A stretch of DNA of 64,000 nucleotides. Source: Cladocopium goreaui. Lineage: Eukaryota; Sar; Dinophyceae; Suessiales; Symbiodiniaceae. The first letter of the stretch is position 1, and each line of letters starts with the position of its first letter. The DNA is taken from contig CAMXCT020001112.1 in the NCBI GenBank assembly GCA_947184155.2, positions 642,001 to 706,000 on the forward strand, read 5' to 3'. A model generated the notes under the pieces. The model had not been told where the DNA came from. It saw nothing but the letters and a program-made list of their open reading frames with translations, and made no database searches. The translations under genes and the position numbers were made by a program. Shown here piece after piece: positions 23,203-63,087 of this stretch.

Positions 23203-23312
23203 TCTGGGCAAATTATAATAATTCACAAACCTGAAATAAGGCCATTTGGGGATGATTCCCCTTATTACCCATGATTCCAGTGAGGTCGCAGTGAGGTCGT
23301 TATAATTTACCC
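23203..23312. mobile_element. MITE family D, left 110 bp of an interrupted copy
   Basis: It begins TCTGGGCAAATTATAATAAT and ends GAGGTCGTTATAATTTACCC, and aligns end to end with the uninterrupted copy at 49097-49211 except that the final AGA is missing here. Those three bases follow the retroelement at 35491-35493. The MITE was therefore in place before the retroelement inserted. Confidence 0.9.
23301..23312. repeat. Target-site duplication, 3' copy
   Basis: TATAATTTACCC, identical to 35479-35490. Perfect 12-bp repeats bound the 12,166-bp insertion and lie at the same place in the MITE, as expected of target-primed reverse transcription. Confidence 0.92.
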
Positions 23313-23405
23313 TTTTCCCCCCGTCAAAAGATCCGAAGCCCGAACAAAGTTGAGACTCCGGCCTGGTGCCGATCTCCGAAGAATGTGAAACTGGCCATGG
23401 ACTCC
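23313..23405 (-). other. 3' UTR and A-tail of the 12-kb retroelement
   Basis: On the minus strand, 93 bp follow the last stop and end in TTTTGACGGGGGGAAAA directly against the target repeat. The tail is only four A. A CGGGCTTCGG palindrome sits about 35 nt before the end and could help reverse-transcriptase recognition. Confidence 0.7.
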
Positions 23406-25175
23406 TCAGTGGAAGACCAGACCTTGCAGCGGTCGTTTTCGCCACTCTCGTACTGTTGCAAATCCTTTCATCACCTCTTTCAGCGATTTCTTCCAACATT
23501 TTGTCAAATTCAATCCTGCAGGAATTGTCAAGGAAACTTCAGGCATCACTGGCAGCGTATCAAAGGTTTGGCTATTCAGGACATACTGTTGCATGTAAGC
23601 AGTGACTTCTGGTTGCATCGGTATGACTGGTCTTTGCAAGTACCCATAACTCTGCGTGGTTGCACCAAGGATATACAGGCTTTTGCAGAAGCCCTTTTGT
23701 TTCTCTGGCCAAGGGTCCCATGTGCACAGTTTTCGCACTTGTTGCAGCAGGATGGTAAAAGTGTTTGACGCTTCACCCAACCCCACTGTAAATTTCGCCA
23801 CATCAGACCAATCAGCAAAAGTTTGTAGATATATATCTCCATTCTGCAGTTGACGTCTTAGTGGTAAAAGAAAACGTGTGTACATGGTAAAGGACACAAA
23901 AAGCTCCATCCATGTCATACCCGGGTCTTGCTGGTGAACCTCCTCTTCACGGTTCCACTGTACTTGCATCATCCATGCAAGGACGATGTCACAAGCTACC
24001 TTCCCCCAAGGTGAAAACTGAAAAAAGCAAACACCTGGCTGTGGTCCCTGCTAACAATTTTCCACCCTCCAAGAGGACAGTCTGTCCTTGGGGGTAATGT
24101 CAGCAGGTTTACGCAAGGCATCATGTACCTCCTGCTCTTTCCTGTTAGCCTGGAGAAGTGCAAAGCGCGTCCTTAAGGCCAAAAGGTACCGAAAAAAATC
24201 CTCCAAGTACTGTCTGTCCATCTGTATGTCTCTATGCATCTGGTCGGCAAGCTGAAGAACCTGTGGCTGCATGTATTTAAGGGCATGTCCTGCTGCTTCA
24301 TCCGCAAGGCGATTCCCCAAAATATCATACACTTGCAAGCTGGAATGATGGCTACCAATTTCTTGATGTGCTTTTACCTTACAAACATGTCGCTGTCCTG
24401 TGCGAAGGGCTCGCCACAGGCGCTGAATCAAGTCAAGTTCAGGCATATCATTAAGTTGAAACAAGAAATGAGCTTCTGCACAACGCTGGAAAGCATGGAC
24501 CACTGCAGCATTGTCTGTCTTGACACATGTGTTGATGGTCCATTCACAGAGGCACACCACCGCTGACAACTCTGCACGATATATCGACTGATTCCCTGTG
24601 AGTCTGGCTGTGGCACAAATCATGAGGGAGGCGGGTATCATTCCAGTCCGTCTCCAAACTTCGGCATGAAAAGTACGCTGCTCATCAGAAGTGCATGTAT
24701 CCATGATGATTGCATATGATCCGTATCGACAAGTGGCTGACGCAGGATATTGGAGCGCACCATCTGTGTAAAAAGTTGGCACAAAGCTCTGAGGCAGGTG
24801 CTGCAGCTTATCTCGCATCTCATCCGATATCATCGCTTCAGGCTGGATGTGGTGTAGGTGTTCAAGTAACTGCTGGTTTTCATGCTGAAGCAAAAAGGGC
24901 AGTTCGTGAAACTCCGACCCAGTTTCCATCATCCAGTCCAAGGTGGGCTGGAACTGTTGACGCACTTCACTGGCAACGGGGCAGTCATATATTCTATGGG
25001 CTCTAGAGTCAGGTTCTCCACAGTAGAGGCATAAACCTGTGGCGTCTGCTGCCCATCTACTTTTTTGCACTTCCGTCTGAAAAGAAAGAGTCATATCTTG
25101 AGCAAGATGACGCTGTTCTGTGGCATTGAATTTCGCAACAACCTGTTTGGTATCCCAAACGTTGAGTCGCAACAT
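23406..25175 (-). pseudogene. Retroelement ORF2, CCHC + RNase H + C-terminal domain
   Basis: A frame different from the upstream reverse transcriptase, entered by a frameshift near 25180 within a GGAAAACC run. Counting from 25175: a CCHC knuckle at C49, C52, H60 and C65 (C-x2-C-x7-H-x4-C, the same spacing as in the second LINE); RNase H from about 132 to 300 with YTDGA (D138), YRAELSAV (E202), KTDNAAV (D221), KAHQ (H270) and NRLADEAA (D292), so the catalytic acidic set is complete. RNase H removes RNA from the cDNA hybrid. A TAG at 24051 then interrupts the frame, which stays open for a further 215 codons to a TGA at 23406. That extension includes QVQWN and FADWSDVAKF and corresponds in position to the C-terminal domain of the second LINE. 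The TAG could derive from TGG (Trp) or CAG. Confidence 0.85.
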
Positions 25176-26151
25176 TCAAGGTTTTCCTATCGGCATGGTG
25201 GAGCAAAACATCATGTCCCCAGGTATAGTTGGCCCATTTGGCAAAAACCGGCAAACTCGTGGTGGCCAGAGACAAAAAAAAAATTGCTTCTACTTGAATG
25301 GTGCCGGCAGCAGTAAAAGACCATCCTAATTTTGACAAGTAGTAGATCATGCATCCAATAGGTCCTTTGCACTGGGTGTGCAATCCAGTGTGTCTGCTGG
25401 CAACACACAAGAATTCCTTCTGGCAAGCGGGGCTTAAGGAAAGAAAGAGTTTTCTCATGGCTCTAAGGGACCTTAGGACTATGTCTAACATGGGGTCTTG
25501 CATCTTAGGGATGGCCAAAAGTGCCAGGGCAGCATTTCTTGTCTGGGAATGTCCCAGCAAGGCATTGGAGATCGCTGAGCGGAGCTTGCGTATGTGAACT
25601 TCTCCCAAAGGGATAACCTCAGTGCCATAAAGGGCCACTGGTAGCACTGAGCCTCGTGTCAATTGGGTTTTGGTGTCAAGTGGCAAGGTCAAAGCTTCTA
25701 TCCTGGCAAGTCGCTGCGTGGCTTTGTCAAGACGTTGTTTAAACTTTCCCAGGTGAGGCACACCTTGGTACGTCATGACTGCACCTAGATCCATTGCGGA
25801 CAATCTACGTTGGAGCTCATGGGCATACGGCTTAGTGGCTAAGGCTTGCGCCAAAATCGCATGCATTTCTGGGGAGGTGGCCCATGTCCAGCTCTTGCGC
25901 CAATCGATGATCATATCCGTCATGGTGGCAAATCTAGTGGTGCTATCAAGGATATGATGGTGCTCAGGTCCTGTTGTGGCGGCCCAGGACCAGTTATCAG
26001 CATAGGCCGATACAAATGCTTGGGGTGCTTGGGATCGCACCAGCAGGCTCCAAGCATGGGCCAGGGCCAGAATTCCTACTACGCTCCAGCTGTCGCCCTC
26101 AGGCATGCCATGGTTTGTGGGGATCTCAGGTGAACATTGGCGGTCAAGTTT
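25057..26151 (-). pseudogene. Retroelement ORF2, reverse transcriptase second half
   Basis: It continues in frame after the TAG at 26152. Motif B reads GMPEGDSWSVV, the equivalent of GxPQGxxxS. Motif C reads YADNW, where the usual YADDW has its second aspartate replaced by asparagine; the second LINE keeps YVDDW. Downstream are the thumb region and conserved TRGSVLPVALYGTEV. The frame is lost near 25180, beyond which the last ~40 residues of this ORF are out of frame. The RT copies element RNA at the nicked target. The D to N change and the stop between motifs A and B suggest that this copy is inactive. Confidence 0.85.
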
Positions 26152-28881
26152 CTAAATCCTAGTCAGGCCTTGCAGGGACTGAAACCACTGGCGGGTGAGT
26201 TGTGGGGGTATGCCAAGCCACTCTAGGGTCTTTCGCACCGCCCAGGGGGCAATAGTGTTAAAGCATTTGAGCAGGTCTATGGATAGCCCAGCAAATGGTG
26301 TGGCACGCCAATGGCATAGTTCTATGGCAAGTTGTTGACGCAGATACGCTTCAGCAGGCCCACGGCCTTTGAGAAAACCTGTCATATCTGGGGGCATGTG
26401 CATGGCAAAGTGTGCAAGGATTTGGTGTGTACATACTTTAGCCCACAAACGATACAACTGGGGTAGCACTGTGATTGGTCGGATTTGTCCCGCCGCAGGT
26501 GTTGTCATGACTTTGGCAATGGGAACCGTTATGGCAAGCATGGCATCAGCCGGAAAACCATCTGTCATTGCCAACAGGATACACTTAAGGCTTTGGACTG
26601 CAAGAGGTGGCAATTGTTGAAGTTCACTAGATGAAATTGCGTCCACTCCTCTGGCAGAGGGGACTTTTAATGTAGCTATTGCACGCTTCCAAAGGGCATC
26701 ATCATCTAGATTCAGTGCTGGCGCAGGCATGTGTTGTGGGAGTTGTTGCAAAAAGTCATCAAATTCTTGTTGGGCCCCCATCCTCTCTCCATCGCTGTTC
26801 CAAAAAGGATACCAGTAGTTAGTAAGTTGATCTAACATCTGTCCTGGGTCTGCCTGGATCTTATCCTGGGTTATAGTGACTGTCTCAGGCAAGTCTGGCA
26901 GGGGTTGGCATGGCTTCAAGGAAATGGAAAAGGGATCTGTTTTTACGATTTGGCAGGATACTTCATGCATCACTACTGGGCAGGCAACTGCAAACTGTTT
27001 GGGATTATCAAGAAAGGCTGTCACTGTTCCATCATCATTCGCAAGAACTATTGCATCTTCACAAAGTTTCGTACGGATTTCTGTGAGTGGTGGCATTGCC
27101 TGTTCACGGATGCTGGCATATGCCACTCTATGTCCTCCAAGGGTCTTGTCCAAGTGTCGTGCATATTTGGCCCTATCTGCATGGATCTGTTTATCCCTGA
27201 CAAGTTCACTTTGGGTGTGGTGCTTGAGCAATTGAAGCAAGGTGAAGAGATAGTCCTCCGTCGGGAGGAACATGGCTGGCGGCCCCAACTCTGGTTGGCA
27301 CTGGCACCATGCAACAAAATGCTTTCTAAAGGCATATGAACTCAAAATGGCCTGCCATTCAAGGTGCAAATCATGCCATTGATCAAAGTGGTCTTTCTTG
27401 TTGGCAGCTACAAGACGTCCATAGAGGGACTGAACTCTCCTGACCTGTTTTACCTTGCGCATGGTGGAATGGCGGGCAATTTCATTGCTGGCAGCAAAAT
27501 CTCCAGGCCTGGCAATTGTGGTCAGGAGGACCTTGTCAATTCGTTCGGGTTTCCTGGGTTTACGTCGACCTCTATAGGCCCTAGGAAGTGGTTGCAGTGC
27601 ATGAGTAGAAACACCTAAGGAAAGTTGAGTTTGCCTATAAACTTGATCAGCTGCACATTCTACTACTTTGGCCCACGTCTGAAGGTCTTTCGGTTGGCCC
27701 AACTTGGTCTCAGCCAGGTCATAAGCCTGAGGGAAAAAACTTTCATCCATGCGCAAGTCAATCCTTGTTTTTGGCAGTGGCAAATGATATGCATGCAAGT
27801 CGACTTCTGGGATACAGGTCTTGAAAAGTACAACCTGGTGAGTATCAAAGTCACCAGGAGGGCATACTCGGATATCCCGGATCCACTTGGCTACTGTTGG
27901 GCAGCACATCGCATTATCTGGCCAGGTGGTGGACCTGCAGGTTGGTGGCATCGGGGTACCTGTTTGCTGCAGGTGCAACATTTTTAAGTCAGTGAGTCTG
28001 CGACCTTCCGCTTCTTCCGCAAGGATGGCCAGTGGATTACAATTGAAGTCCCCTAAGATGAGATATGGCAGGGCATAGTGATCAACAGCCGCCAGGGCTT
28101 CTAGAAGCAGGGCATGATTGGCCTTGTCTGTATTGGATTGTGCCAGTCCGTATATTACGACACACTGCACCTGGACATGGTTGAGATCAAGCAACACATG
28201 AACTAACCTGGCAGAGGCTTGCGTGGGTTGCGAAATGGTATCATCCAGGTGTCGGATGGGCCACTTGGCAAACATTGCAACTCCGGAAGCCTTTCCTCGG
28301 AGAGACGGTTGCATATCTGTGCGCTCTACTCGGTCTGGCAATGCCATGGACCACTTGGCTCTGAAGCCATCCGTACGCATGGCAGAGGAGAACTGGCGTT
28401 GCACCACTTTGGTAGCTGCTGTTTCACTTGCAGTGATGACATCCAAATCATTTTGCCGGATCAGTTCCCTATATTGCAAGGTTTTGGAGACAATAGATGT
28501 CGGGCTGGTGATTGCCCAGTTCAATTGCAGGTCTGGTCCTGGGTTATCAGCCTCGCCTACGCGTGTGGCAGTGAAAGGATCATATGTGGCACATCTGGTT
28601 GGCAAAATGCCTAGGCCGCTGCATGACAATTCTGTACAAAAAGGTAGTGATCTATGCCTAGCAGGCAATGGCTCTATACATTTAAGGCTGCATGGCACAG
28701 TGTATGGCTTACATTGCGGACAATGTATCTTGGGAACACGAATCCAATGGATATATTTCCCCTGGACAGTTGAGAAACCATACAAGCAGTTGTACCTAGA
28801 CATGTGCTGCCATGCATTTGGCGTCTCAAGATAAACACAGAAACTCAAAATTGGCGGAGCACTACATATCTCGCACGGCAA
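26152..28881 (-). pseudogene. Retroelement ORF2, AP endonuclease and RT first half
   Basis: 909 codons read from a TTG; the first ATG is at residue 27, and the frame is open back to the TGA ending ORF1 in the same frame. A Cys-rich N-terminus (PCEIC, HCPQC, PCSLKC) precedes RVGEADNPGP at 108-116. The exonuclease-endonuclease-phosphatase fold spans about 120-355: ASET (E153), GDFN (D278, N280), WPDNA, and DTH (D346, H348) in place of SDH. The RT starts near 690, with IRPITVLPQLYRLW and motif A LSIDLLKCFN (D869). A TAG at 26152 ends the frame 40 residues after motif A, but motif B follows in the same frame, so the stop is a lesion or is read through. The endonuclease nicks target DNA to prime reverse transcription. 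Confidence 0.88.
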
Positions 28882-28914
28882 AATGCTGTGGTTGGCTCCG
28901 ACAGCAGTCGAATG

Positions 28915-29298
28915 TCAATCATCCATGGCATCATCGGCCGGTGCAGGCCGTTTCTGAGAAATGAGCAGATGTTTGAGCTCTGCCATTCTCTCATCCATCA
29001 TCTGAGTATTCTTTTGGAAAGAAACATCAAGCGATTTGGCTACTTCAATCTTGAGTGCATCCATGGTATGAGCGACTTGTTGAACATGCTGTTTCTCTCT
29101 AAGCTCTGCAGCTTGGAAACGTGCGTCTGTCTGTTTGATCATGGTCTCTTGGTTGATTGCAAGCTTCTCGAGCTGTTGCTCTATGGTTTTCAGCTTTTGA
29201 TCCTGCGCCTGAAGTCTGAGCTCAGTGGGGCCATCAACAGTGCGACCAGTACTTGCAGCAGCTTGTGATGCTTGAGGTCTTGTGCCTGACCATTTGGC
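28915..29298 (-). pseudogene. Coiled-coil C-terminal extension of retroelement ORF1
   Basis: The methyltransferase frame stays open for 127 codons past its TAG at 29299-29301, to a TGA at 28915. It starts AKWSGTRPQ, is rich in Gln, Glu and Lys with heptad-like spacing (LRLQAQDQKLKTIEQQLEKL), and ends KRPAPADDAMDD. A coiled coil at the end of ORF1 is common among LINEs, where it mediates trimerisation around RNA. The TAG may be a mutated Trp codon (GDP-stop-AKW). The next ORF begins in the same frame 33 bp further on with no ATG nearby, so ORF1 and ORF2 may once have been one polyprotein. Confidence 0.72.
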
Positions 29299-32200
29299 CT
29301 AAGGATCACCAATGTCAACAAATTCCCTGGTTTTGGTGGCTTTGGGGCCAACCAGCAATGGACCATTCTGCTGAGCACGTGGTGGAAGCCATCGGATCAA
29401 GATAGCCTGAGTGTTGAACATAAGCAAACCTTCTGGGGGTGCATTGTCAGATCGCATGAGCATGGATTGCGGTCCCAAAGCCCTGATTGGCTGTGCAGTC
29501 CATCCTATCTTGGCACGCCATTGGGTCATCATGGGAATGGTCACTCCAAACGGTAAACCATCAACTCGGTAAACATGTTCCCCTGCTTGTTTGATGGGCT
29601 GCGGCTGCTGTGGACACAGGAGCTGCCACGCTGCTGCAAAATCAGCTTCAGTGACTCGAATACCTAAGGTCTTACGTCCTTTCACCAGTCCCAGGGGGTT
29701 GGCAACTTTTGCACTGGACACTGCAGCTTGGCAAGAATCACAAGACAACCAAATGACTTGGTAGCCAGTGTCGAGACGACCAGCAGAGTTCTTTGGGGTA
29801 CAGAACAGCTTGTTGAACCCTGACTTGGCCAGCAGCTTATGCAACTTGTCTTTTGGGACCGAACAATGGACCTGAATCGTGGCAGCCTGATGTGGCGGAC
29901 AAGGGGATTTTCCCTGACGGAATGACCTGCCCCAAATGCTCAAAACGCAATCCGCAAGATTTTCCTGGTCCAAAACTTGCCGGATGAAAGGGACTGTTCG
30001 ATGCAGCGCTTCGGCCCATGGTTCAGGTTGAAAGTCATCCTTGTGCAAGGTGATGGCTACCAGTGAGCAATGATCCGCACTGATTTGTTTTGGGTCCCCC
30101 TTTTGATAAGTCACCAACTTGGTGCCAAGCTGATACAAGTGGCAATGCAACAAAACCATGTGTCCATCCAAGTTTCTGCATGGGACGACAACATCCTCCC
30201 CTGTCACAGTGGTGCTGGGAGATTTTCCAATCACGAGGAGTGCCAACTCATCACTGCTGATCTTGTCGGAGGTGGAGAGCCAAGGTTCTGCCTGGAGGCT
30301 GGAAAGCAAACAAACACCTGTGGCCTGAGGTCGGACGGCGGAAACTTGAGGACATGGTGTCCCATCCTCATTCTGGAAAAAGGTTTCCAAGATGTCAAAA
30401 TCTGCGGGATTAATGTCTCCTTCACCTTTCCGTCTTTTGGGCTGATTCCAAGGCAACCCTTGAGGCAATTTCTTGGTCTGCGGCTTAGGCAATTCTGGCA
30501 TGGCAAGGTTAACCTCCGTCAACAGTGTGCGCAAGGCTGTGGTTTTTTGTCCACCTGGTGGCATGGCCGAGAACTGTTGCAGCTTTTGCAGGCTAAGTTT
30601 GTTGGTGAGCGTTTCAACTGTTTGTGTGACCCAAGTCAGGTCAAAACCCATCTCCAAAAGGAATGAGGCAATAGCAGTTTGTGTCAGTATCTTGTGTTGG
30701 TTCTTCGCACCACCTCCTCCATGCATTTGTAGCACTACATGCAATACTACTGCCTGACGTCTTGATTGCATTTCCAAGTCACGGAGGTAGGCTTCAGGCA
30801 TGATCTGTTTGGCTTGATGGACAATCCTATGCTGGGCACTACCATTGGCTGGTGTCAATGCATGATGAAGGAGCTTGATGATCATGGCAATGGTAAAGTC
30901 ACCGGAGAGCTCAGCGTTAAACAGCGGTCTTGTGGTCCACTTGATCAAGACTGGCTTGCTACCTTCTTGGGGCAGAGTTTGATTGACTGCACAAACTATG
31001 GATCGGAATGCCAGTACCGAAAGCTGCACTGCAAAGGCATTCGGGGACATGACACCATGTGTGCGACATGGGACAAACTGGATCATGACTCCATCCGGAC
31101 AAGGGACACTTTGGACGGTGCGACCTAAAAAGCTCTGCATGTCCAGTGGCACAACTGCAGTCCAGAAGTCAGCAATGGTCTGCAAGCAAATAGGATCACC
31201 TTGATAGCAAAGGCAAAACGCATCATTGTCCGAGTTCCAGTGTGTCTGGACAGGGCAAAGTTCCAAGGCAGCAAGCAGTTGCAAAACTGGGCCACGAAAT
31301 TCACCATTGCAAATTGGTCTGGTCATGATAGCTGTGTGATCTGCTGTGCATTGATGTGGTTCCAGCCTCCCAAATTGGTCAAAAAGTTCATCAGCAATCA
31401 AAGAGACTTCCGGATGGTTTTGGATTGGAACTGCATGTTCCATCTTCATGAGTGTCATCTGATGATCCACCAAAATTTGTACAAGCACATCTCGGTACGG
31501 ATTGCCAAAATCTACCGGACACGGACGGGGACGCAAAATGGTGAGACCATCCAATGCATGCAAATCCGGAAACTCACTTGCAAATGCATGATTCCACGGT
31601 GTTTCAACTACAGCGGCTGGCAAATCGGATGCAAACCAAAATGACTGAAGGAAGGCCAAACCCTGGATCTTGGCTTGCAGGATCACATTGGGCGGGCATT
31701 CGGATGCATTTGAGGATGCAACTGAGATGGCACCAGAAACAGCACTGGCATCAAACTGTGTGTCGGGCAGGTCATCCAGTGTCGGCTGCACTGGTTGCAT
31801 GTCACGTGTACCTACCTGTGGAATCCATACCTGCAAGGGCTGTTGATCATCCATGTGGTGGAGCGAATTCAAGCTTTCAAGGAATGGCTGCACAGGTACG
31901 GTGTCAATCCGGGTATACAGCTCACCTTGTGGAACCTGAAACACTTGCATCTCATTGGCCTTGATTCGCCTCTGCAGGAAAGCAAGCACTGCATCATGAA
32001 TAGAAATTGTTTGTGTCAAATGTGGACCGAGCATCGCAACCAAAGGGATCATGGCATGAATGGGCAGTATGGAATTTCCAGCAGTGCGCCATGCATGTTT
32101 CAAGTCATGTGAGACGAACATCCAATCAATGACGCCATGAAGCAAGTTGACTTCAGCCGGATGGAAAAATCGTGCTCCTTGAGGCATGGTGTGATCGTGC

Positions 32201-33471
32201 AAGAAAAATCCCAGGTATGTGTGTTCATCCAAGTGTGCATTTGGCAATTCATGCTGACTACCATATTGGGCCATAAATGTGGGTAGGTGCATTTTATGTC
32301 CATAAATGCGGCTGCTCAAGACTTCCGTTGGTGTCTTGGTCCTACCATGTCTGCCAGCTTTGATTGGATCGGATGCCACTTTGTACACTGCTTCAGTGAT
32401 TGCCAATTGCTGTTTTGTGTCTTCATCCCATTGTCGAAGGAACACTGCATGATCTGTGTCAATAGTGGGAAGGCGCCATGTTGGAAATGGCACTTGTGGA
32501 AAACTGGAATGCACTCTAATTGCTAAGGCAAGCCATCTTGCTCTGGCAACACCTAGGCTGTTACGTACATCCACTGTTTTCTGCCACATGAGCCTATATC
32601 CTATCCACCTGATGGCCTTTTCGATGAAGTGCTTCTGATGGTGCATAGCAAAACCAGCAACATTCTCAATCGCTATGTAAGTCGGTCGCAAAAACCTACA
32701 CTTGAGAATGGCATGGAGCATGAGGTTTCCTTCATGTTTCTCAAGGCCCAATCCTGTAGAAGCAGAGGACCATGGTCCACATGGTGAGGAAATGGTCACC
32801 AAATCAACCTTGATGGTGGAAATTGCCCGGGTCCAAAAGTTGGAGCATACATCATCACAAATCACCCAGTTACCATCATAGTATGTCAGGATGTTTTCGG
32901 GGAGATCTTCTTTGGGGCAAACAAAGGCGGCACAATGATTAATGGCATATGTCTTGGCAATGGCACGGTCAATCTCTATCCCAATGGATCGGGATGGCAT
33001 TCGGATTTCGTTGGTGAGGAATCTCAAGGCTGAGGACCAACCTCCTACCCCTCCGCAGAAAAAATCCACATGTTGCAAGCTTCGTGGCAAGTTCCCTGGA
33101 TTGTCTGCAAAAAACCAACTGGAATGTTCATCATAGAAAAAAGTGCGCACATCCAGATCACTCTGAAAGACCTGGCACCCCCAGATCTTGACATGTGTTG
33201 GTGGCAAGGCTTTCTGCGTATCCCAAACCAGCATGAGGTCATCATCCCCTGGGGTGTCTGCTGGGACGGTCAGGAAATCATGCATAAAGGCAGTGACCCC
33301 AAATCCTTCTGGAAACATCTGTTGGAATCCTAATCGCAACTCATCATCTGCAAAATTCCTGGTGGTGACATCTATCAGAAGGTTGGTTCTCTGGAGAAAA
33401 GGATCTGACCCCTTGGCACCATCGCAATCAAACTCCTGTAGAGCTTCAAGCAGCAACTCCGGATATGCCAT
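29299..33471 (-). CDS. Retroelement ORF1 with C5 cytosine DNA methyltransferase domain
   Basis: 1390 aa from an ATG. The C5-methyltransferase core occupies about 132-475: motif I VDFFCGGVGG (135-144, S-adenosylmethionine binding), motif II GIEID (164-168), motif IV SSPCGPWSS with catalytic Cys231, motif VI AIENVAGF (E269), motif VIII LGVARARW (306-313), a presumed target-recognition region at about 320-430, motif IX HPAEVNLLHG and motif X RTAGNSI (G465, N466). All expected landmarks are present with no break. The remaining ~900 residues are not recognised; the last 110 contain YRVDGLPFGVTIPMMTQW and may bind nucleic acid. Methyltransferases carried by dinoflagellate retrotransposons are reported to methylate CG sites de novo, which could silence or protect the new copy. 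Expression may depend on re-initiation, because it is the third ORF from the 5' end. The ORF ends in TAG. Confidence 0.9.
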   Translation of the reverse strand: MAYPELLLEALQEFDCDGAKGSDPFLQRTNLLIDVTTRNFADDELRLGFQQMFPEGFGVTAFMHDFLTVPADTPGDDDLMLVWDTQKALPPTHVKIWGCQVFQSDLDVRTFFYDEHSSWFFADNPGNLPRSLQHVDFFCGGVGGWSSALRFLTNEIRMPSRSIGIEIDRAIAKTYAINHCAAFVCPKEDLPENILTYYDGNWVICDDVCSNFWTRAISTIKVDLVTISSPCGPWSSASTGLGLEKHEGNLMLHAILKCRFLRPTYIAIENVAGFAMHHQKHFIEKAIRWIGYRLMWQKTVDVRNSLGVARARWLALAIRVHSSFPQVPFPTWRLPTIDTDHAVFLRQWDEDTKQQLAITEAVYKVASDPIKAGRHGRTKTPTEVLSSRIYGHKMHLPTFMAQYGSQHELPNAHLDEHTYLGFFLHDHTMPQGARFFHPAEVNLLHGVIDWMFVSHDLKHAWRTAGNSILPIHAMIPLVAMLGPHLTQTISIHDAVLAFLQRRIKANEMQVFQVPQGELYTRIDTVPVQPFLESLNSLHHMDDQQPLQVWIPQVGTRDMQPVQPTLDDLPDTQFDASAVSGAISVASSNASECPPNVILQAKIQGLAFLQSFWFASDLPAAVVETPWNHAFASEFPDLHALDGLTILRPRPCPVDFGNPYRDVLVQILVDHQMTLMKMEHAVPIQNHPEVSLIADELFDQFGRLEPHQCTADHTAIMTRPICNGEFRGPVLQLLAALELCPVQTHWNSDNDAFCLCYQGDPICLQTIADFWTAVVPLDMQSFLGRTVQSVPCPDGVMIQFVPCRTHGVMSPNAFAVQLSVLAFRSIVCAVNQTLPQEGSKPVLIKWTTRPLFNAELSGDFTIAMIIKLLHHALTPANGSAQHRIVHQAKQIMPEAYLRDLEMQSRRQAVVLHVVLQMHGGGGAKNQHKILTQTAIASFLLEMGFDLTWVTQTVETLTNKLSLQKLQQFSAMPPGGQKTTALRTLLTEVNLAMPELPKPQTKKLPQGLPWNQPKRRKGEGDINPADFDILETFFQNEDGTPCPQVSAVRPQATGVCLLSSLQAEPWLSTSDKISSDELALLVIGKSPSTTVTGEDVVVPCRNLDGHMVLLHCHLYQLGTKLVTYQKGDPKQISADHCSLVAITLHKDDFQPEPWAEALHRTVPFIRQVLDQENLADCVLSIWGRSFRQGKSPCPPHQAATIQVHCSVPKDKLHKLLAKSGFNKLFCTPKNSAGRLDTGYQVIWLSCDSCQAAVSSAKVANPLGLVKGRKTLGIRVTEADFAAAWQLLCPQQPQPIKQAGEHVYRVDGLPFGVTIPMMTQWRAKIGWTAQPIRALGPQSMLMRSDNAPPEGLLMFNTQAILIRWLPPRAQQNGPLLVGPKATKTREFVDIGDP

Positions 33472-33810
33472 GGCTCATTCGAATCAGCGTTGAGCGCCGA
33501 CACCAAGCTCGGCCCGAGGAGCCTGAGCCGCAGAGCTTAAATTTAGAAAGCTCGTTACGCTCACCTGTTGACATGTTCTGAACACATGCTTACTTAGGTG
33601 TGTTACAGGCTGAAACTTTGCCTAACGTCCACCCGGAGACGCACTCTTTTCTCGGACTGACTCAACGAGAAATACAGGTGACCGCCAAGAGGTGCCCATG
33701 TCAATCAGTCTGTGATTGTGTACATACTACTAAACATTATTTGGTCTTGGCTTAGTCAATAGGCGCTATTTTGTTTCCAAACCTATGGACACCATCTTGA
33801 AATCTTGAAA
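33472..33810 (-). other. Spacer between the 407-aa ORF and methyltransferase ORF
   Basis: 339 bp without a long ORF in the sense direction. The half nearest the methyltransferase start is GC-rich and can form local stems (for example CTGCGGCTCAGGCTCCTCGG). It could be the original 5' UTR of the LINE, an internal translation-initiation region, or a template-switch junction. Nothing in the sequence decides among these. Confidence 0.4.
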
Positions 33811-35034
33811 CTACTGGATGATAGGAACATAGCCAGCGGCAATCTGTAGAGCCGCGGCCAATGTTAACATCAACCGATGATGATACTGTACTATACGTTC
33901 GGACACTTGAGATCCGATGATACACTCAGCCGTCTGCAAGCCCATCATCTGTAATGGCTGCAAACTTCGAGTGAACCTCCTCTCTTGAAAATTCTGGTCT
34001 CTGAAACGACGGATCACACGCATACCCCACGATAGGCTCTCAGCAACCTGCTCTTGTGTAAGTGCCAGGTAAGCATTTGCCATAGCAGGATCAAGCAACC
34101 GTTGTCCCAGAAAATACAAGTCAAACTGCAGGTTATTGATCTGTAAGCTTACCAACTTGCTCGGTGTTGCAGTCAATTGCTCCGAGTCCAGTGATACAAA
34201 CGAAACACCTACGTTCCTTGCTTCTCCAGAAAATCGTTCGATGATGACAGCAATGAGATTTGAATAAAAATTGATACCCAAAGCTGCGTTCAGATGGCTG
34301 TTCAAGAATGGACCCACCAGATCAAGTAGATTGTTGGGTATATAACTCGACAGTCGCACCCGAAACTGATCTTGATTCCCAGTCAGAAGCAGATTGTACG
34401 ATCGCGCTAGGCAGAAATACCTAACACGGTGAATACGAGAGCGTCTTTGACGATAGCCCCACACCAAAGTGATAGCCATTTCAACAATCTCTCGAAATGT
34501 AGGTTGCGGAGTTTGCACATAGCCCCACATCACAATCGCAACTTCTACTGGAAGCAGCGAGTACAAGCACAAGTAAATTGCTCGATTGTACACACCGCAA
34601 GGAGTGCATCTTCTTGACCACGTATTTCCACCTGCTGGTGTTAACAAGGTTCCAGGTTGTGAATCCTCGTAAAACAGCGGAAGTGGAGTATCCAAATAGC
34701 GTAAACCTTCAAACTCTAAAGAACCAGCAACCTGAGAATCCCAGGTGTTGATCGTTGAGCTCGAGAACGTTGGATACAACACTCTGAATCCACTGATCTC
34801 AGCAGGGAACATCTTCCATAATACATCCGGTATCTGAAGTACTTGTGGTAGAGGAATTTGATAATAGAAGGCCACGTTCTGATAGATACGTCTCAGCAGA
34901 GCTGCTGTCACATCAATGACTAGCAGTGGCAGAGGCATAACCGTCAGCTGCATGTATCGTGAAGCTTGCTCAACGACACTATTGACTCTAGTGCCCATGA
35001 CAAAGAATATGCCAATGGTGTTATGATCAACCAT
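33811..35034 (-). CDS. 407-aa ORF of unknown family inside the retroelement
   Basis: An intact ATG-to-TAG ORF. It is rich in Leu, Ile, Tyr and Arg, with hydrophobic stretches near 30-60 and 152-172 (SLLPVEVAIVMW), a RRCTPCG pair at 141-147, an Arg-rich patch YRQRRSRIHRVRYF at about 194-207, and a helical-looking C-terminus. I recognise no retroelement, methyltransferase or cellular family. The ORF lies 31 bp after the Lys/Glu-rich ORF in the +1 frame, and that frame is open upstream across the gap. Possibilities are an accessory ORF0-type protein, a capsid or membrane protein captured from an RNA virus of dinoflagellates, or a host protein. RNA-virus-derived insertions near retroelements are reported in dinoflagellate genomes, but I cannot show homology. 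Confidence 0.6.
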   Translation of the reverse strand: MVDHNTIGIFFVMGTRVNSVVEQASRYMQLTVMPLPLLVIDVTAALLRRIYQNVAFYYQIPLPQVLQIPDVLWKMFPAEISGFRVLYPTFSSSTINTWDSQVAGSLEFEGLRYLDTPLPLFYEDSQPGTLLTPAGGNTWSRRCTPCGVYNRAIYLCLYSLLPVEVAIVMWGYVQTPQPTFREIVEMAITLVWGYRQRRSRIHRVRYFCLARSYNLLLTGNQDQFRVRLSSYIPNNLLDLVGPFLNSHLNAALGINFYSNLIAVIIERFSGEARNVGVSFVSLDSEQLTATPSKLVSLQINNLQFDLYFLGQRLLDPAMANAYLALTQEQVAESLSWGMRVIRRFRDQNFQERRFTRSLQPLQMMGLQTAECIIGSQVSERIVQYHHRLMLTLAAALQIAAGYVPIIQ

Positions 35035-35065
35035 CTCACGATTTTCACCAAAACAAGCGGACCGG

Positions 35066-35446
35066 CTACAGCAAGGAGTTCTTTTCCCGCTTCAACGCGA
35101 TCTCCACTTCTTTGCTGACTGGCTTCTTCTTGCTCTTGGACTTCTTGCTTGGAGTGTCCATCTCTGCGGGCTCGACCACGAGGTCCTCCTCCTTTGGTTT
35201 TTCCTCTTCGGCGGTTTCTGTCGCCTTTGCCTCCTCTGTTTTCATGATCTCTTCCTTCTCTTTTGTTGACAGCATCTCCCAGTCTTCGTCCTCGACCGGT
35301 TTCTCTGCCTTCTTCTTTGGTTTCTGACTCGCTATTGTCAGGATCCCATTTCTGAGGATCTTTCTTCCCTTTTCCTCTTGACCCTTTTCTTTTGCCTTTG
35401 CCTTTTGACTTGCCCGATGCAGTTTTCGTAGCTGCTTCGGAGCCAT
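35066..35446 (-). CDS. 126-aa Lys/Glu-rich ORF directly behind the spliced leader
   Basis: The first ATG is 11 nt after the DinoSL, giving a 5' UTR of about 33 nt. The protein begins MAPKQLRKLHRASQKAKAKE and is dominated by Lys, Glu and Ala. An acidic middle (PVEDEDWEMLS) and a basic end (PSKKSKSKKKP) suggest a disordered, nucleic-acid-binding protein. It ends with TAG. A 221-codon frame on the same strand (34944-35609, Arg/Gly-rich) overlaps it but starts outside the element, so I prefer the 126-aa reading. Unrecognised. Confidence 0.6.
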   Translation of the reverse strand: MAPKQLRKLHRASQKAKAKEKGQEEKGRKILRNGILTIASQKPKKKAEKPVEDEDWEMLSTKEKEEIMKTEEAKATETAEEEKPKEEDLVVEPAEMDTPSKKSKSKKKPVSKEVEIALKREKNSLL

Positions 35447-35457
35447 TGCGGGCCAGG

Positions 35458-35479
35458 CTTGAGCCAAAATGGCTACGGT
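35458..35479 (-). other. Complete dinoflagellate spliced leader (DinoSL) at the element 5' end
   Basis: The minus strand reads A, then CCGTAGCC...GGCTCAAG: all 21 constant positions of DinoSL, plus A at the variable first position, which is also the first base of the target repeat. DinoSL is added to nuclear mRNAs by trans-splicing. Its position at the exact boundary of the insertion shows that the retrotransposed RNA had been trans-spliced. It is not followed by a splice donor, so this is not an SL RNA gene. Confidence 0.95.
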
Positions 35480-35490
35480 ATAATTTACCC
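35479..35490. repeat. Target-site duplication, 5' copy
   Basis: TATAATTTACCC, matching 23301-23312 exactly; followed by AGA, the missing end of the split MITE, and then (TA)n flanking DNA. Confidence 0.92.
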
Positions 35491-35493
35491 AGA

Positions 35494-49096: not shown

Positions 49097-49211
49097 TCTG
49101 GGTAAATTATAATATTTCACTAACCTGAATCTTGCGGCCATTTGGGGATGATTTCCCTTATTAACTATGATTCCAGTGAGGTCGCAGTGAGGTCGTTATA
49201 ATTTACCCAGA
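49097..49211. mobile_element. MITE family D, uninterrupted copy
   Basis: 115 bp with 16-bp terminal inverted repeats (TCTGGGTAAATTATAA and complement). It shows the empty-site sequence for the 12-kb insertion. Confidence 0.9.
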
Positions 49212-58108: not shown

Positions 58109-60109
58109 TCAATCGCGGCAGTCTGGCGTCTGAAAGTGTGGCCACCGTGACGCAACATCCAATCGTCGATCCATTGAAGCCGCTGTGGACACCACGGCAC
58201 AGCAACAACCCCAGTGAACATTAGGATACATTAGGACCATCTGAGAAGCCGGCCTTTTGTAGTCAAAGGAGAGCTTTATTTGCATGTGCCTTAATGTTTC
58301 CTTCAAAACTTTCGTGAACCATCTGGCTCGTTGGCGGAAGCTGTAATTGTGGAGGCTAAGAAAAGGAAAATCAGCACCATCATACCATCGGTCTTTCTTA
58401 ATGGGCCCGGGCATTCCTGTTGTGAGCATGAAGTCTATGTACAGTTGAAAGTGAGACACCCACTGAACTTCATGACAACTGGTTGAAACTGCGGCCCAAA
58501 ACCAACTAGTGATATGTCTGACCAACTTTTCTCCATACCATCGCATTGCCGCAGGTGAAAGAAACAGCGTAGGCAGAGGCGCCCAGTGAATCCGGGGTTT
58601 CTCCTGCATCAGCACATGGGTTATCGGCATTTCACTTGGGGGAGCTTCCTCACGGGTCACTTCTTTGCTGATTGCCAGCTGAACCTGCTGCACAGTTCGG
58701 TTGAACCATGCAATGCCATCACATGCAGTGGTATGTCGTTGCCAAAGAGCCCAAAAATCCTGACTGCGCGACAGGTTCGCGCGGACTGCTTGTTTATCTG
58801 CTATGCCATTGTGACGAAAACACCAATCTGTATAAATGTCTCCAACATCATCAGTGCACTGGTGCGCCGCCACTCTTGCAACAAACAATGGGGAAACACG
58901 CTCACGGACTAATGTTTGAATCTCCAGCCATAAATCAGAGTGCGAACTATTAACCCGTACATCATGGCCAGATATGATGCGCTTGAGTTTCTTAATCACA
59001 CTGTCACAATCAGACCAAAGAAACAATCTGTTGTCGGACCCCTGAGTAATACGTAGGGCCCTGAGCACAGCAAAAAGTTCAGCCCGGATTGCACTCTGCA
59101 GAATGCCTGGGAGGTGTCCTGAGTCCAGAATCCTACTATCCTGGCAGTCATACACACTGGTGCTTGAGGCTAAAACAACTGCGTACCCAGCAAACCGTTG
59201 GTTGCCAAATTGTTGGTTGAAACAACTTCCATCAGTGAAAATGTAGATGTCACCGTGAAAAGTGAAACTAGGCGTGGGAAGGGCCCGCAATCCAGCAAAA
59301 TAACAGTTCCACTCAAACATCGTGGTGGGCTGCAATGACCAGCCAGCACATGTGAGTGCCTCAGGGAGTTCACTAATGCAGCGGCGCAGGGCTGGAGTGA
59401 GCCCATCACGCAGAGTCTCAAATCTGGGGCATTCCCAAAACCTATGATATCTGCTGTCACTACATTCGCAAAAAAGGCACTCATCAGAAGAGGCTTCCTG
59501 GCAATACATCTTCCCATCCTGGGTGAAATGGGTGCCATTCAGCACCTTGCGAAACAAGGCTTGGTCGGCCGCATCCAATGATTGAAGCCAGTGTTTAGTT
59601 GCAGTCACGTCACAGTTCTCCAAACCATCAAAACATCGGCGGTGAGCTGTGGAAGCTGCAACCACCCTGGGCCACTGCAGGTCGAGCCGATATTGAAGCT
59701 CCGCCATCGAAGTTTCAAAAAGGGAAAAGGTTCCATACTGATCCACAATCATACCTTGGTCATTGATGTGCCAGCCCAGGAACTGTAGCCTGGTACACAG
59801 GGTGTGGGTGATACTGTTCCTGGGGAAAGCATTGGAGCCTGCAACAATATCAGCCAAAACCTGTTCAACCCTCTCTCGACTTCCACAATCACGTGTGAGA
59901 CGTATGGTTTGCTGTATGGCCCAGTTGTGCGGGTCCGTGGCAGATTTCTCAATTAGGCCCAACTGTACCATTGGATTTGCTCCCGCGGCATCAGCTCGGA
60001 GCCCACGCATTGCACCAGACCGCAGGGACTTGAACATCGTCAAACTGAGGGAAGTAGCAGGGATACCATGCAAAAACTTAGGCCAAGCAGCTACTCGAAT
60101 TGCTCGCAC
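58109..60109 (-). CDS. LINE ORF2 second part: CCHC, RNase H, C-terminal domain
   Basis: 666 codons, read from a GTG where this frame takes over from the one upstream. Residues about 1-190 are the RT thumb and linker. C211, C214, H222 and C227 form the CCHC knuckle. RNase H runs from about 285 to 445 with FTDGS (D293), RAELFAVL (E344), SDCDS (D367), AAHQ, and GIADKQ (D438). A C-terminal domain of ~220 residues with CHEVQWVSHFQLYIDFML follows, its counterpart in the 12-kb element lying after an amber codon. The frame overlaps the preceding ORF by 19 bp in a different phase. In related elements this is continuous, so a one-base frameshift near AGGTGCGAG is the likely cause, although programmed frameshifting cannot be excluded. 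Confidence 0.88.
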   Translation of the reverse strand: MRAIRVAAWPKFLHGIPATSLSLTMFKSLRSGAMRGLRADAAGANPMVQLGLIEKSATDPHNWAIQQTIRLTRDCGSRERVEQVLADIVAGSNAFPRNSITHTLCTRLQFLGWHINDQGMIVDQYGTFSLFETSMAELQYRLDLQWPRVVAASTAHRRCFDGLENCDVTATKHWLQSLDAADQALFRKVLNGTHFTQDGKMYCQEASSDECLFCECSDSRYHRFWECPRFETLRDGLTPALRRCISELPEALTCAGWSLQPTTMFEWNCYFAGLRALPTPSFTFHGDIYIFTDGSCFNQQFGNQRFAGYAVVLASSTSVYDCQDSRILDSGHLPGILQSAIRAELFAVLRALRITQGSDNRLFLWSDCDSVIKKLKRIISGHDVRVNSSHSDLWLEIQTLVRERVSPLFVARVAAHQCTDDVGDIYTDWCFRHNGIADKQAVRANLSRSQDFWALWQRHTTACDGIAWFNRTVQQVQLAISKEVTREEAPPSEMPITHVLMQEKPRIHWAPLPTLFLSPAAMRWYGEKLVRHITSWFWAAVSTSCHEVQWVSHFQLYIDFMLTTGMPGPIKKDRWYDGADFPFLSLHNYSFRQRARWFTKVLKETLRHMQIKLSFDYKRPASQMVLMYPNVHWGCCCAVVSTAASMDRRLDVASRWPHFQTPDCRD

Positions 60110-63087
60110 CTTGCAAAGTAGTTACAGGCCGAAAGTCTCAGTTTTACCCACAAATGTTGAGCTCCCTGAATACGGGCAACCAGGGTGCTGTTAGTGTGCA
60201 TCCTAGTGAATTGGACATGCGCGCCCAGGTTTCGCTCACAAGCAACCAAATCCAGTCCTTGCTCACGTATAAGCTGACGACCTTGAGCACAAACAGACCA
60301 GGTGTGAGTTTTGTTACGATCCAGTAGCAAGTCCATCGCCTGTGTGAAACGTTCAAGGCATTGCAAGGTAGGCCGAATGAGATCCGGGTTTGTCATCAAA
60401 ACCTGCCAATCATCAACATACGAAAGGGGCTGGCACATAGGGAAAAAGTGAGACATCCATGCATGATAAACCATGTCAATGACCATCATTCCCACACATG
60501 AAAGAGCACAACCCTCTGGCAGTCCACAATTACTGTAAGCGGGGGGGCTGAGGGCCCCATTGATTTGAAACCGCCGTGGCATGATGGTCAGGGCTCCTGC
60601 CCATGCACGCAGCACATGAAATGGGATGCCAACCAATGCACAACACTCAAAAACCACAAGGCGTGGTAAAAAGTTGAACGCTCTTTGAATGTCAGCTATG
60701 ATGCCACTCAATTGGATCTCCTGTTCGTATGCCTGCTCTATGGACCAAAGCAGCTGGGACCAGACCTGACCTGCAAATCTCTTCGGTCTGCTGCCAAAGA
60801 GCCCGGTGGGCAGGTGCACATCTAAACGCTGGATGATGTGTCTGGCTTGGAATGTACCCCAGCAACGGTACAAGAGCCCAAGCACAGTAATGGGGCGAAA
60901 ATCTAACGCTCGTTGTGGCTCCGGTTTCTTGGCAATACAGGCAACTCTCCCTGAAACTAATTGTGACGGCCAAAGGCCCGTCTCTTCCGCATGTGTAAAG
61001 ATGTCTACAAAATTGCACAGGGCCGCTGGTGGCATGGCCCGCAAGTCTGCCAGGGAAACACCATCCAGGCCACTGGCTGTGGCCGCCTTTTTGTGGGAAA
61101 GGCAGTGGCTCAATGCTTCCATAGTCATCTGCGGCATCGAAAACTGCACTCTGGGTAAGTGCTGTCTTGCAAACTCAAGAATCAACGTCCACCTCTGGGG
61201 CGGGACATGTGTATGGCGTTCCCACATTTCTTTCCATGCCGACAGGAAAGTGTGAAACAGGTCTTCATCCGTGCCAATCTGTTGGGTCTGCGTAACTGTG
61301 CCACCAACTTCAACCCCAGCAAGGGACTCAACCCACACACAATCATGTTCAGCATGGATGACAGGCAATCGTGCTGCATTACATACCACCGGCTGCAGGG
61401 GGTCAAATTGCATTGGACGATCAAGGACAATAGCCATTTCCTCAGGACGCACCTCAAGCACCCTGGCAGGTTTGGGTTGTAACAGAACATGAACTCCATG
61501 GTCTGAGTGTGTTTTCAAATCATGGAAAATGGCGTTTGGGTTGCTGTCACGTTTCAGTCTGGCATAGAGCCGGGACGACTTTTGCAGTTCAAGTTCAAAC
61601 TGTCGTAACGCAAGCAACATGGACTCATAGATGCTCGTGGCAATCCCCCACGCTGGTGGAATGAGTGGCACTTGTGCTGGTGCTCCATGCGTGTGTGTAG
61701 TGGCATGAGTCCACCATTGGGAAAACGTTGGGTTGAACCCTCTAGCCCTTACGATTGCCCCGCAGACTAAGCAGGCATGATTGGAAACTGCATCATTGCA
61801 CTTGACATACCTACAGTATGCTTGGAGTCTTCGCGCCTGGCGCAACCACTGGGTGTGCCTGAACGAGGAGCAGACAAATTGTGGTTGTATGTCACCCTTT
61901 CTGGCAAGGCGAGGTGCTGGCGTTTTACCAGCCACTACAGGTGAGGTAGTCATTGTCTTCGCCCTACCCCTGGCCTTTTTTGGGACAGGAAATGGCACCG
62001 CTCGGGCCGCATTTGACTCAATATGTTGCCAGAGAGCTACATACCGCTGTTCACATGTTCCAGGCGTGGATCGCCAGAACTGCTCATCAACCTCCCAGGT
62101 CACTGGCCACGGAAACTGAACAGGTGAAAACCAAATTTGTTTGGGAACAGAGGCTTTCATGGGGTGAAACACACCAAGAAGTACGGCATGGTCAGGAAAC
62201 ACATCCTGTTGAACTTCGACTGAATGCAGCAGCTGCTGGAGTTCAGGGGAAATGTAAAGATAATCCTTACGTGTGACCCCTTTACAAGTGGGCTGAATAG
62301 GGATCCCCCAGAAACGATTGGCTACATCTTGTATGTCCAAAAAACCTGCCGCTTCAAGTTGTGAGAAAACTGGAAGCTCATACTGTGACATATTCCAGTC
62401 GCCGGCAACGTACCTCGGACCTTTGGTGAGACAGCAAACATGATTGGCCACCTCCTGAAGGAGTCTCTCATTGTTGATCCTATGCTGTGGGTACGTACCA
62501 CTTTCTGGTTCTCCATAGACCACTCCCCCTGTGACCCAAGTGTCCTGTATGAGTGACGTGGTGACCAAGGCTCGTGAAGAACCAAGGACATCATCTGGCA
62601 AATGAGTGGGCACGGCTCGTGTAGGGTGTTTAGAAAGCACGGCAACACCTCTCCACGAAGCATGGAAGGTCCTGTCATTCTGTGCAGGGACTGGGTGCCC
62701 TCCAATCATGTACTTGTAGGGTCCTCTAGCAAAATGCATACTGGCCCGGAACTGACTCATGGCATTTTCACTCAAATGGGTTTCGGAAACAGCCCAAACA
62801 TCCCCTTGGGCAAATTGTGAAACAAGGTAAGGTGCTTTGCCAGGAAGACCTGACGGGTTGAAAGCGCCTAAGACAAAACTTGATTCAGGTCTGGGGCCAG
62901 GGTTAGCCGCTTCACCAATGCGACAGAGGAGTGCAAAGGCGGCAACATAAGGCCACAAACCAGATCTACATCTTACCGATGTAACACGGCACACAGCCGC
63001 TCCCCAACAAAAACCCCCAAACATAAGGCCCAGGACTCCATAATTGCCCGCCTTGCACTTCAGGACATCGACCAGGACATTGGACAT
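60091..63087 (-). CDS. LINE ORF2 first part: AP endonuclease and reverse transcriptase
   Basis: 998 aa. The N-terminus has two hydrophobic stretches (about 18-34 and 46-55), then RIGEAANPGP (56-65). The endonuclease spans about 72-305: GAFNPSG (N77), VSETHLS (E102), RGVAVLSK, AGDWN (D230, N232), RKDYLYIS (D275) and FPDHA (D299, H300), all as in active APE-type nucleases. The RT spans about 660-960: RPITVLGLLYRCW, motif A IIADIQRAFN (D799), motif B GLPEGCALS (855-863), motif C YVDDW (D892, D893), motif D and NLGAHVQF. The first codons are built from the adjoining minisatellite, so the true start may be elsewhere. It acts by nicking target DNA and copying its own RNA in the nucleus. The APE plus RNase H architecture places it with LINE clades such as I, Tad or R1, exact clade undetermined. 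Confidence 0.92.
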   Translation of the reverse strand: MSNVLVDVLKCKAGNYGVLGLMFGGFCWGAAVCRVTSVRCRSGLWPYVAAFALLCRIGEAANPGPRPESSFVLGAFNPSGLPGKAPYLVSQFAQGDVWAVSETHLSENAMSQFRASMHFARGPYKYMIGGHPVPAQNDRTFHASWRGVAVLSKHPTRAVPTHLPDDVLGSSRALVTTSLIQDTWVTGGVVYGEPESGTYPQHRINNERLLQEVANHVCCLTKGPRYVAGDWNMSQYELPVFSQLEAAGFLDIQDVANRFWGIPIQPTCKGVTRKDYLYISPELQQLLHSVEVQQDVFPDHAVLLGVFHPMKASVPKQIWFSPVQFPWPVTWEVDEQFWRSTPGTCEQRYVALWQHIESNAARAVPFPVPKKARGRAKTMTTSPVVAGKTPAPRLARKGDIQPQFVCSSFRHTQWLRQARRLQAYCRYVKCNDAVSNHACLVCGAIVRARGFNPTFSQWWTHATTHTHGAPAQVPLIPPAWGIATSIYESMLLALRQFELELQKSSRLYARLKRDSNPNAIFHDLKTHSDHGVHVLLQPKPARVLEVRPEEMAIVLDRPMQFDPLQPVVCNAARLPVIHAEHDCVWVESLAGVEVGGTVTQTQQIGTDEDLFHTFLSAWKEMWERHTHVPPQRWTLILEFARQHLPRVQFSMPQMTMEALSHCLSHKKAATASGLDGVSLADLRAMPPAALCNFVDIFTHAEETGLWPSQLVSGRVACIAKKPEPQRALDFRPITVLGLLYRCWGTFQARHIIQRLDVHLPTGLFGSRPKRFAGQVWSQLLWSIEQAYEQEIQLSGIIADIQRAFNFLPRLVVFECCALVGIPFHVLRAWAGALTIMPRRFQINGALSPPAYSNCGLPEGCALSCVGMMVIDMVYHAWMSHFFPMCQPLSYVDDWQVLMTNPDLIRPTLQCLERFTQAMDLLLDRNKTHTWSVCAQGRQLIREQGLDLVACERNLGAHVQFTRMHTNSTLVARIQGAQHLWVKLRLSACNYFARCEQFE

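Follow-up and report, generated by a model that had tools for sequence, protein, structure and literature searches.

Target-specific LINEs of the Tx1 kind are endonuclease-type elements whose target is one end of a repeat that has inverted termini. In a dinoflagellate genome, a LINE with a C5-methylase ORF upstream of the reverse transcriptase (RT) ORF has been described under the name SymbioLINE-Dnmt (PMC5890265, de Mendoza et al. 2018). Dinoflagellate retrogenes that carry a relict of the spliced leader (SL) are known from Slamovits and Keeling (2008), whose cases are taken up in PMC3229502, PMC6050394 and PMC12014239, and endogenous dinoRNAV elements have an SL within 500 bp, with LINEs proposed as the agents (PMC10235124). 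Mammalian L1 makes chimeras with mRNA that are comparable to the one analysed here, and 5' transduction has been reported for human L1 (PMC13174262). The passages of the open-licence PMC literature covered here contain no statement of LINEs with an SL at their 5' ends; the SL relicts that they describe belong to host genes or lie close to endogenous viruses.

An SL-headed insertion in one end of a MITE-like repeat

The locus lies in a stretch of 64,000 nucleotides (the window; contig C1112, positions 642001-706000) of assembly G000, which comprises 1,165,616,438 bases (1.17 Gb) in 6,202 contigs. The initial annotation had placed a full 22-nt DinoSL at the 5' boundary of a 12.2-kb insertion, directly adjoining the target-site duplication, and this holds to the base. 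The SL matches with 0 mismatches on the minus strand (35479-35458), is the only match in the window when up to 3 mismatches are allowed, and heads an insertion of 12,166 bp (23313-35478) that reads on the minus strand and is flanked by a 12-bp target-site duplication, TATAATTTACCC (Table 1). No DinoSL match arose in a control of shuffled sequences (0/100), and an exact search of the whole assembly with the 21-nt SL core returned 172 places (81+91), with 0 for the reversed control. Joining the flanks of the insertion reconstitutes a MITE-like repeat with inverted ends CTGGGTAAATTATAA, an uninterrupted 113-bp copy of which is found at 49098-49210 of the window; the insertion is placed in one end of this repeat. 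With an SL at the 5' boundary of an insertion that has a target-site duplication, the locus has the layout of an SL-marked retrocopy.

Table 1. Features of the insertion and its target in window coordinates, in the reading direction of the insertion.
Feature	Position	Strand	Remarks
Target-site duplication, copy adjoining the 5' end of the insertion	35479..35490	.	TATAATTTACCC; base 35479 belongs to the SL or to the duplication
Complete DinoSL heading the insertion	35458..35479	-	exact match to ACCGTAGCCATTTTGGCTCAAG
Leader between the SL and the native LINE start, ~1.92 kb	33537..35457	-	absent from the relatives read
Leader ORF1, lysine-rich, 126 aa	35066..35446	-	ATG at 35446
Leader ORF2, 407 aa	33811..35034	-	no Pfam family above cut-off
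Native LINE 5' end	33472..33536	-	placed by aligning relatives; the methylase ATG follows after 65 nt
Methylase ORF, PF00145	28915..33471	-	premature TAG at 29299
Endonuclease-RT ORF	25057..28914	-	premature TAG at 26152; frame lost near 25.1 kb
RNase H region, in a different frame	24051..25175	-	PF00075 0.0019, below cut-off
C-terminal open stretch (to 23406) and LINE 3' end	23313..24050	-	
Target-site duplication, copy adjoining the 3' end of the insertion	23301..23312	.	TATAATTTACCC repeated
MITE-like target repeat split by the insertion	23204..23312, final bases at 35480-35492	.	flanks joined

The 113-bp repeat with CTGGGTAAATTATAA ends is a recurrent landing site, seen at 49098-49210 and at loci L013, L019 and L035; at L013 and L019 the SL stands at one identical second position within it.

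Judged by its architecture, with a C5-methylase ORF (PF00145, E 1.8e-13) upstream of an endonuclease-RT ORF, the element in the insertion is a degraded SymbioLINE-Dnmt. The endonuclease is recognised above cut-off (PF03372, 3.6e-6) and the RT scores 29.3 bits against a cut-off of 29.6 (PF00078, 8.8e-7); the SL-headed element carries its own RT, as had been claimed, but its ORFs are interrupted. Comparison with uninterrupted relatives reveals two premature TAG codons (29299, 26152) and one frameshift near 25.1 kb in the window LINE, and shows that the TGA at 28915 matches the point where the methylase ORF of a relative stops; the copy looks dead. A DNA search of the assembly with the 3' 888 bp of the insertion returned the insertion itself and a 216-bp stretch at C14 that is 68% identical. 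A second LINE-type element, with endonuclease-RT and RNase H ORFs, lies at 58109-63087 on the minus strand of the window (PF00078, 3e-8; PF00075, 5e-8; PF03372, 3.9e-5, just below cut-off).

Native 5' ends of the methylase LINE family

We searched the assembly for relatives with the endonuclease-RT protein (50 scored matches among 1780 candidates) and with the methylase ORF (851 candidates, of which 34 were scored and gave 37 matches), and found relatives carrying both ORFs. Since a DNA search with the first 880 bp of the insertion returned no second copy in the assembly, only the insertion itself, the comparison with sister copies is limited to relatives with 46-60% protein identity, the nearest among the matches scored. 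The 5' regions of eight relatives were compared; the native end is readable in six, one is 5' truncated (C986), and in one no boundary was recognised at the approximate coordinates used (C631). An SL is found at none of the six readable ends (0/6). In C3470, C1768, C910, C1446 and C3702 the element begins right behind CTGGGTAAATTATAAC or a one-mismatch form of it, and the methylase ATG follows 65-68 nt after the native start; C1979 has 109 bp of its 5' end in common with C3702 (98%) at a different insertion site, likewise without SL. A search for the SL across the eight 5' regions reached 12-15 of 22 positions at best, never at a boundary. The C986 relative is truncated inside the ORF at a target that looks related by eye, and in C14, the ninth relative, the truncation falls within the endonuclease, here too directly behind the target.

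When the window is aligned to these ends, the match runs from ~33,536 to the methylase ATG at 33,471, that is, over 65 nt; a native start at 33,555 was discarded in favour of this alignment. Because the native start lies inside the insertion, ~1.92 kb of sequence separate the SL from the LINE. That full-length copies start with DinoSL, the check set out in the initial annotation, finds no support in the six readable relatives or in this homologous point deep within the insertion. Taken over all junctions, 9 of 11 lie at CTGGGTAAATTATAAC or a close form (the window, C469, C3470, C1768, C910, C1446, C3702, C14 and, by eye, C986), and the remaining two are C1979, which lies elsewhere, and C631, where no boundary was seen. 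This repeated insertion into one target sequence makes the family a target-specific LINE.

A ribozyme search at the native 5' ends, from eight sources, gave no match at the gathering score and only 8 sub-threshold matches to microRNA or sRNA, with E-values up to 1. A conserved 5' hairpin was also considered and dropped, as the six native ends fold with z of only -0.13 to -2.10. At the native 5' ends of L073 and L074, the starting GGATTTGGGCTCAGG resembles the 3' part of the SL (11 of 15), and is perhaps an ancient SL relict or a chance likeness.

Another SL-headed copy, which the proposal of a regular SL end leads one to look for, does exist: the pattern GGTAAATT-N(0-10)-SL occurs at two places in the whole assembly, the window and C469 (L022), the latter an independent SL-headed methylase LINE with a different leader. 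At C469 the SL is followed by ~0.19 kb of different sequence, next by a stretch resembling the C3470 native end, and then by the methylase ORF, in pieces that are 40-74% identical, the locus having been read at its 5' side. The two SLs both head methylase LINEs, and the two leaders are mutually unrelated. At L019, where the SL occupies the same second position of the MITE-like repeat as at L013, a piece of the methylase ORF lies ~0.73 kb downstream of the SL.

The leader and the origin of the chimera

By comparison with the relatives, the leader is outside the usual body of the methylase LINE family. The SL is joined directly to coding sequence, the two leader ORFs have no intron interruption and match no Pfam family above cut-off, and the assembly yielded no intron-bearing source for them. 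Neither by DNA nor by protein did a search of this assembly, which may be incomplete, bring up a place where the leader precedes a LINE. The only matches to ORF2 are an 86-aa stretch with 43-44% identity at each of C2124 and C962, which are 99% alike over 2.4 kb and show no element-protein sequence at convincing E-values within the 3.2 kb read. In a public protein collection, ORF2 has one match, a 395-aa protein that is 99% identical; given this protein in a public assembly, the ORF1/ORF2 unit is not unique to the assembly studied here. The origin of ORF2 could be host or viral. The leader ORFs (33811-35455, minus strand) match the C2124/C962 relative in two different frames, and the leader coding sequence therefore seems frameshifted. 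The join between leader and LINE has no poly(A) run. Target-like letters, TAAATTTAA, stand just upstream of the internal native start; their score is equalled by 109 of 12,142 element windows and is reached somewhere in 263 of 500 shuffles of a 400-nt stretch. They would fit read-through, are not significantly target-like, and are suggestive only; nothing was found in a search for a target remnant 20 nt further upstream.

The account that we prefer, with a probability of about 0.7, is that the insertion arose as cDNA from a single chimeric RNA that had been SL-trans-spliced and that consisted of the SL, the 1.9-kb two-ORF leader and the SymbioLINE-Dnmt LINE over its whole length, from native start to 3' end. 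This RNA was probably formed by read-through (5' transduction) and was inserted at the usual target of the LINE. One duplication and one target repeat enclose SL, leader and LINE together, with the native LINE start inside. Since the three parts share one insertion, the template appears to have been an SL-trans-spliced RNA, and the initial annotation is supported in taking it for an SL-capped transcript. An SL is added to RNA only, so the template of the insertion was trans-spliced. A LINE copy downstream of a transcribed unit would have been read through, and the host would have added the SL at the acceptor of the upstream unit. The endonuclease-RT of the LINE, which is the likely agent because the insertion occupies the target of its family, would then have copied the chimeric RNA into the usual target, one end of a MITE-like repeat, and the inserted copy would have decayed afterwards. 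Read-through from an upstream unit that bears an acceptor would be the simplest account of the leader. In these terms the SL is best seen as the 5' end of the template RNA and not as the native end of the methylase LINE family, and the native LINE start, lying inside the insertion behind apparently foreign sequence, gives the locus the layout of a LINE 5' transduction. What counts against this account is that the assembly searches returned neither a donor locus for the leader nor a sister chimera.

The main rival, which we consider unlikely, is that the RNA of the LINE was joined to a separate SL-capped ORF1/ORF2 mRNA by a template jump in target-primed reverse transcription or by ligation. 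L1 chimeras formed by template switching or ligation have been described (PMC13174262), and the letters upstream of the internal native start, which are not significantly target-like, are compatible with such a joining; a mature mRNA 3' end, however, would often leave a poly(A) run between leader and LINE, where there is none, and the short leader of C469 resembles no complete mRNA. We give only a small chance to the idea that the two leader ORFs are true genes of the element, in a rare subfamily to which a new 5' module with a trans-splice acceptor has been added. The ORFs do share one insertion and one orientation with the LINE, and the nearly identical public protein agrees with this idea, but the relatives have neither ORF, and the C2124 and C962 places are without convincing element-protein sequence in the 3.2 kb read.

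The proposal that the SL is the regular 5' end of the methylase LINE family, with cap and boundary provided by host trans-splicing, would draw on the exact position of the SL at the boundary in both the window and C469, and on another, putative LINE family (L028, below) with an SL or its relicts at the 5' end of some copies. The SL-free native ends of the readable relatives, the poor and misplaced best SL matches in the eight regions and the unrelated leaders of the two SL-headed members leave it largely refuted and, in our estimate, slim. A chance match, an SL RNA gene or an assembly artefact has a negligible probability: SL genes and relicts are common in dinoflagellate genomes (PMC8045281), but these explanations are rejected by the shuffles, by the clean duplication and empty site, and by the SL running straight into coding sequence.

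Spliced leaders in other families and comparison with known systems

We read 31 SL loci with 1.5 kb downstream, namely the window and 30 of the 171 others, one of which breaks off where its contig ends. LINE or RT sequence can be recognised in five of the 31: the window, L022, L019, L010 and, via its family, L028. At L010 (1503-2627) the SL directly heads an open frame with RT (PF00078, 8.1e-8) and is in frame with it; among 20 ORFs chosen from the 30 loci, this RVT_1 is the one Pfam match above cut-off, next to one sub-threshold coiled coil. Exact tandem SL relicts gave 34 matches in the assembly (control 0), and at C1147, C2011 and C2083 the matches overlap, which corresponds to at least three SL units in a row. 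The protein families of L018/L021 (150 scored matches) and L027 (129) are of high copy number, and in both of them an SL heads more than one copy. Judged by coordinates, an L021-family member at C925 (118008) is preceded by an SL at a distance of 667 bp and an L027-family member at C820 (81390) by another at 485 bp, in both cases on the same strand; ~0.01 such pairs within 1 kb are expected per family. This coordinate cross-check used 100 SL places from the total of 172, 31 of 34 rows with tandem relicts (after merging of overlaps), 29 of 43 rows of the L028 family and 14 of 37 of the methylase family, and, on contigs shared with the SL lists only, 13 of 150 for L021 and 11 of 129 for L027.

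At L028 (C769) the SL is followed by a 16-nt relict and then by an ORF with 43 matches in the assembly. The 5' ends of seven copies were read (L028 and six more), and their upstream flanks are unrelated. The full SL is present in two, L028 and L080; L077 has two exact tandem SL relicts, and L078 has a 13-of-15 relict. In L079 and L075 there are degenerate repeats that close with GCTCAAG and match at no more than 10 of 15 positions. No SL or relict was seen at the 5' end read of L076. By coordinates, a distant copy at C2646 (26% identical) is preceded, at a distance of 369 bp and in the same orientation, by an exact tandem relict. The family seems to be a putative LINE, by the endonuclease coding sequence (PF14529, 1.4e-8; PF03372, 5.7e-8) found downstream of the ORF in one copy, at C3068. 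Among 44 public homologues of the ORF, some possibly from the same species and with names that include Effrenium, Symbiodinium and Cladocopium, four have an SL-like translation within the first 60 residues (0.16% in shuffles), and P0013 and P0021 have it in tandem. These names, together with the SL and the methylase LINEs, suggest that the genome is that of a dinoflagellate belonging to Symbiodiniaceae or close to it. Stacked SL relicts arise by splicing of a new SL at an AG inside the old one (PMC3229502), so the L028 and L077 copies would have passed through more than one SL-capped round. Against a strict SL rule in this family, three of the seven copies are without a clear SL, and host genes display the same relict ladders.

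The suggestion in the initial annotation that host trans-splicing defines the 5' end of the element must therefore be divided: it does not hold for the methylase LINE family, whose readable native ends are free of SL, and its general form finds support in the L028 family, for which an SL-supplied LINE end is plausible. We tentatively propose, at somewhat less than even odds, that in some LINE lineages of dinoflagellates the element itself does not fix where its 5' end lies, and that host trans-splicing renews this end in each generation, with transcription from any unit, an SL cap at its acceptor, insertion, and later trans-splicing inside the old SL; the window insertion would then be a one-off capture of an SL by a LINE family that is normally without it. 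In the L028 family, the ladder expected under such renewal sits at the 5' boundary and is also translated in public homologues.

If stacked SLs mark where the copies of a LINE family begin, a mobile element would owe its 5' end to RNA processing by the host, and the DNA would allow its rounds of retrotransposition to be counted. Such renewal, if true, would also account for the mobility of LINE copies that have no promoter, in a genome whose transcription units are long. The L028 family seems to be a second mobile family in the same genome that has acquired the SL repeatedly. As the maker of SL-tagged retrocopies in dinoflagellates, one review favours LTR elements (PMC6050394); in the window, SL-capped templates are tied to endonuclease-type LINE machinery, because the SL-capped RNA occupies the preferred target of that LINE.

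The window element shares with SymbioLINE-Dnmt the methylase ORF upstream of the RT ORF and differs from it in the SL head and the 1.9-kb leader (PMC5890265); the main text of that paper contains neither 'spliced leader' nor 'target site', and from the absence of the latter the MITE-end target seems undescribed there. As in the relict-SL retrogenes (PMC3229502, PMC6050394, PMC12014239), an SL-capped RNA was apparently reverse transcribed and inserted, and relict SLs may stack, but those retrogenes are host genes, whereas the SL-capped RNA of the window includes an RT-coding LINE in its own target. The dinoRNAV elements likewise have an SL beside retroposed sequence (PMC10235124); their cargo is an RNA virus, while in the window the insertion begins exactly at the SL and a LINE is part of the cargo. 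With the chimeras of human L1 5' transduction (PMC13174262) the locus has in common that RNA of another unit is fused 5' of a long LINE, with one duplication around both; unlike in those, the 5' part begins with a trans-spliced leader, and neither a source locus nor an exon junction was seen here. Finally, the window LINE resembles Tx1-kind LINEs in entering one end of a repeat with inverted termini, and is set apart from them by its methylase ORF.
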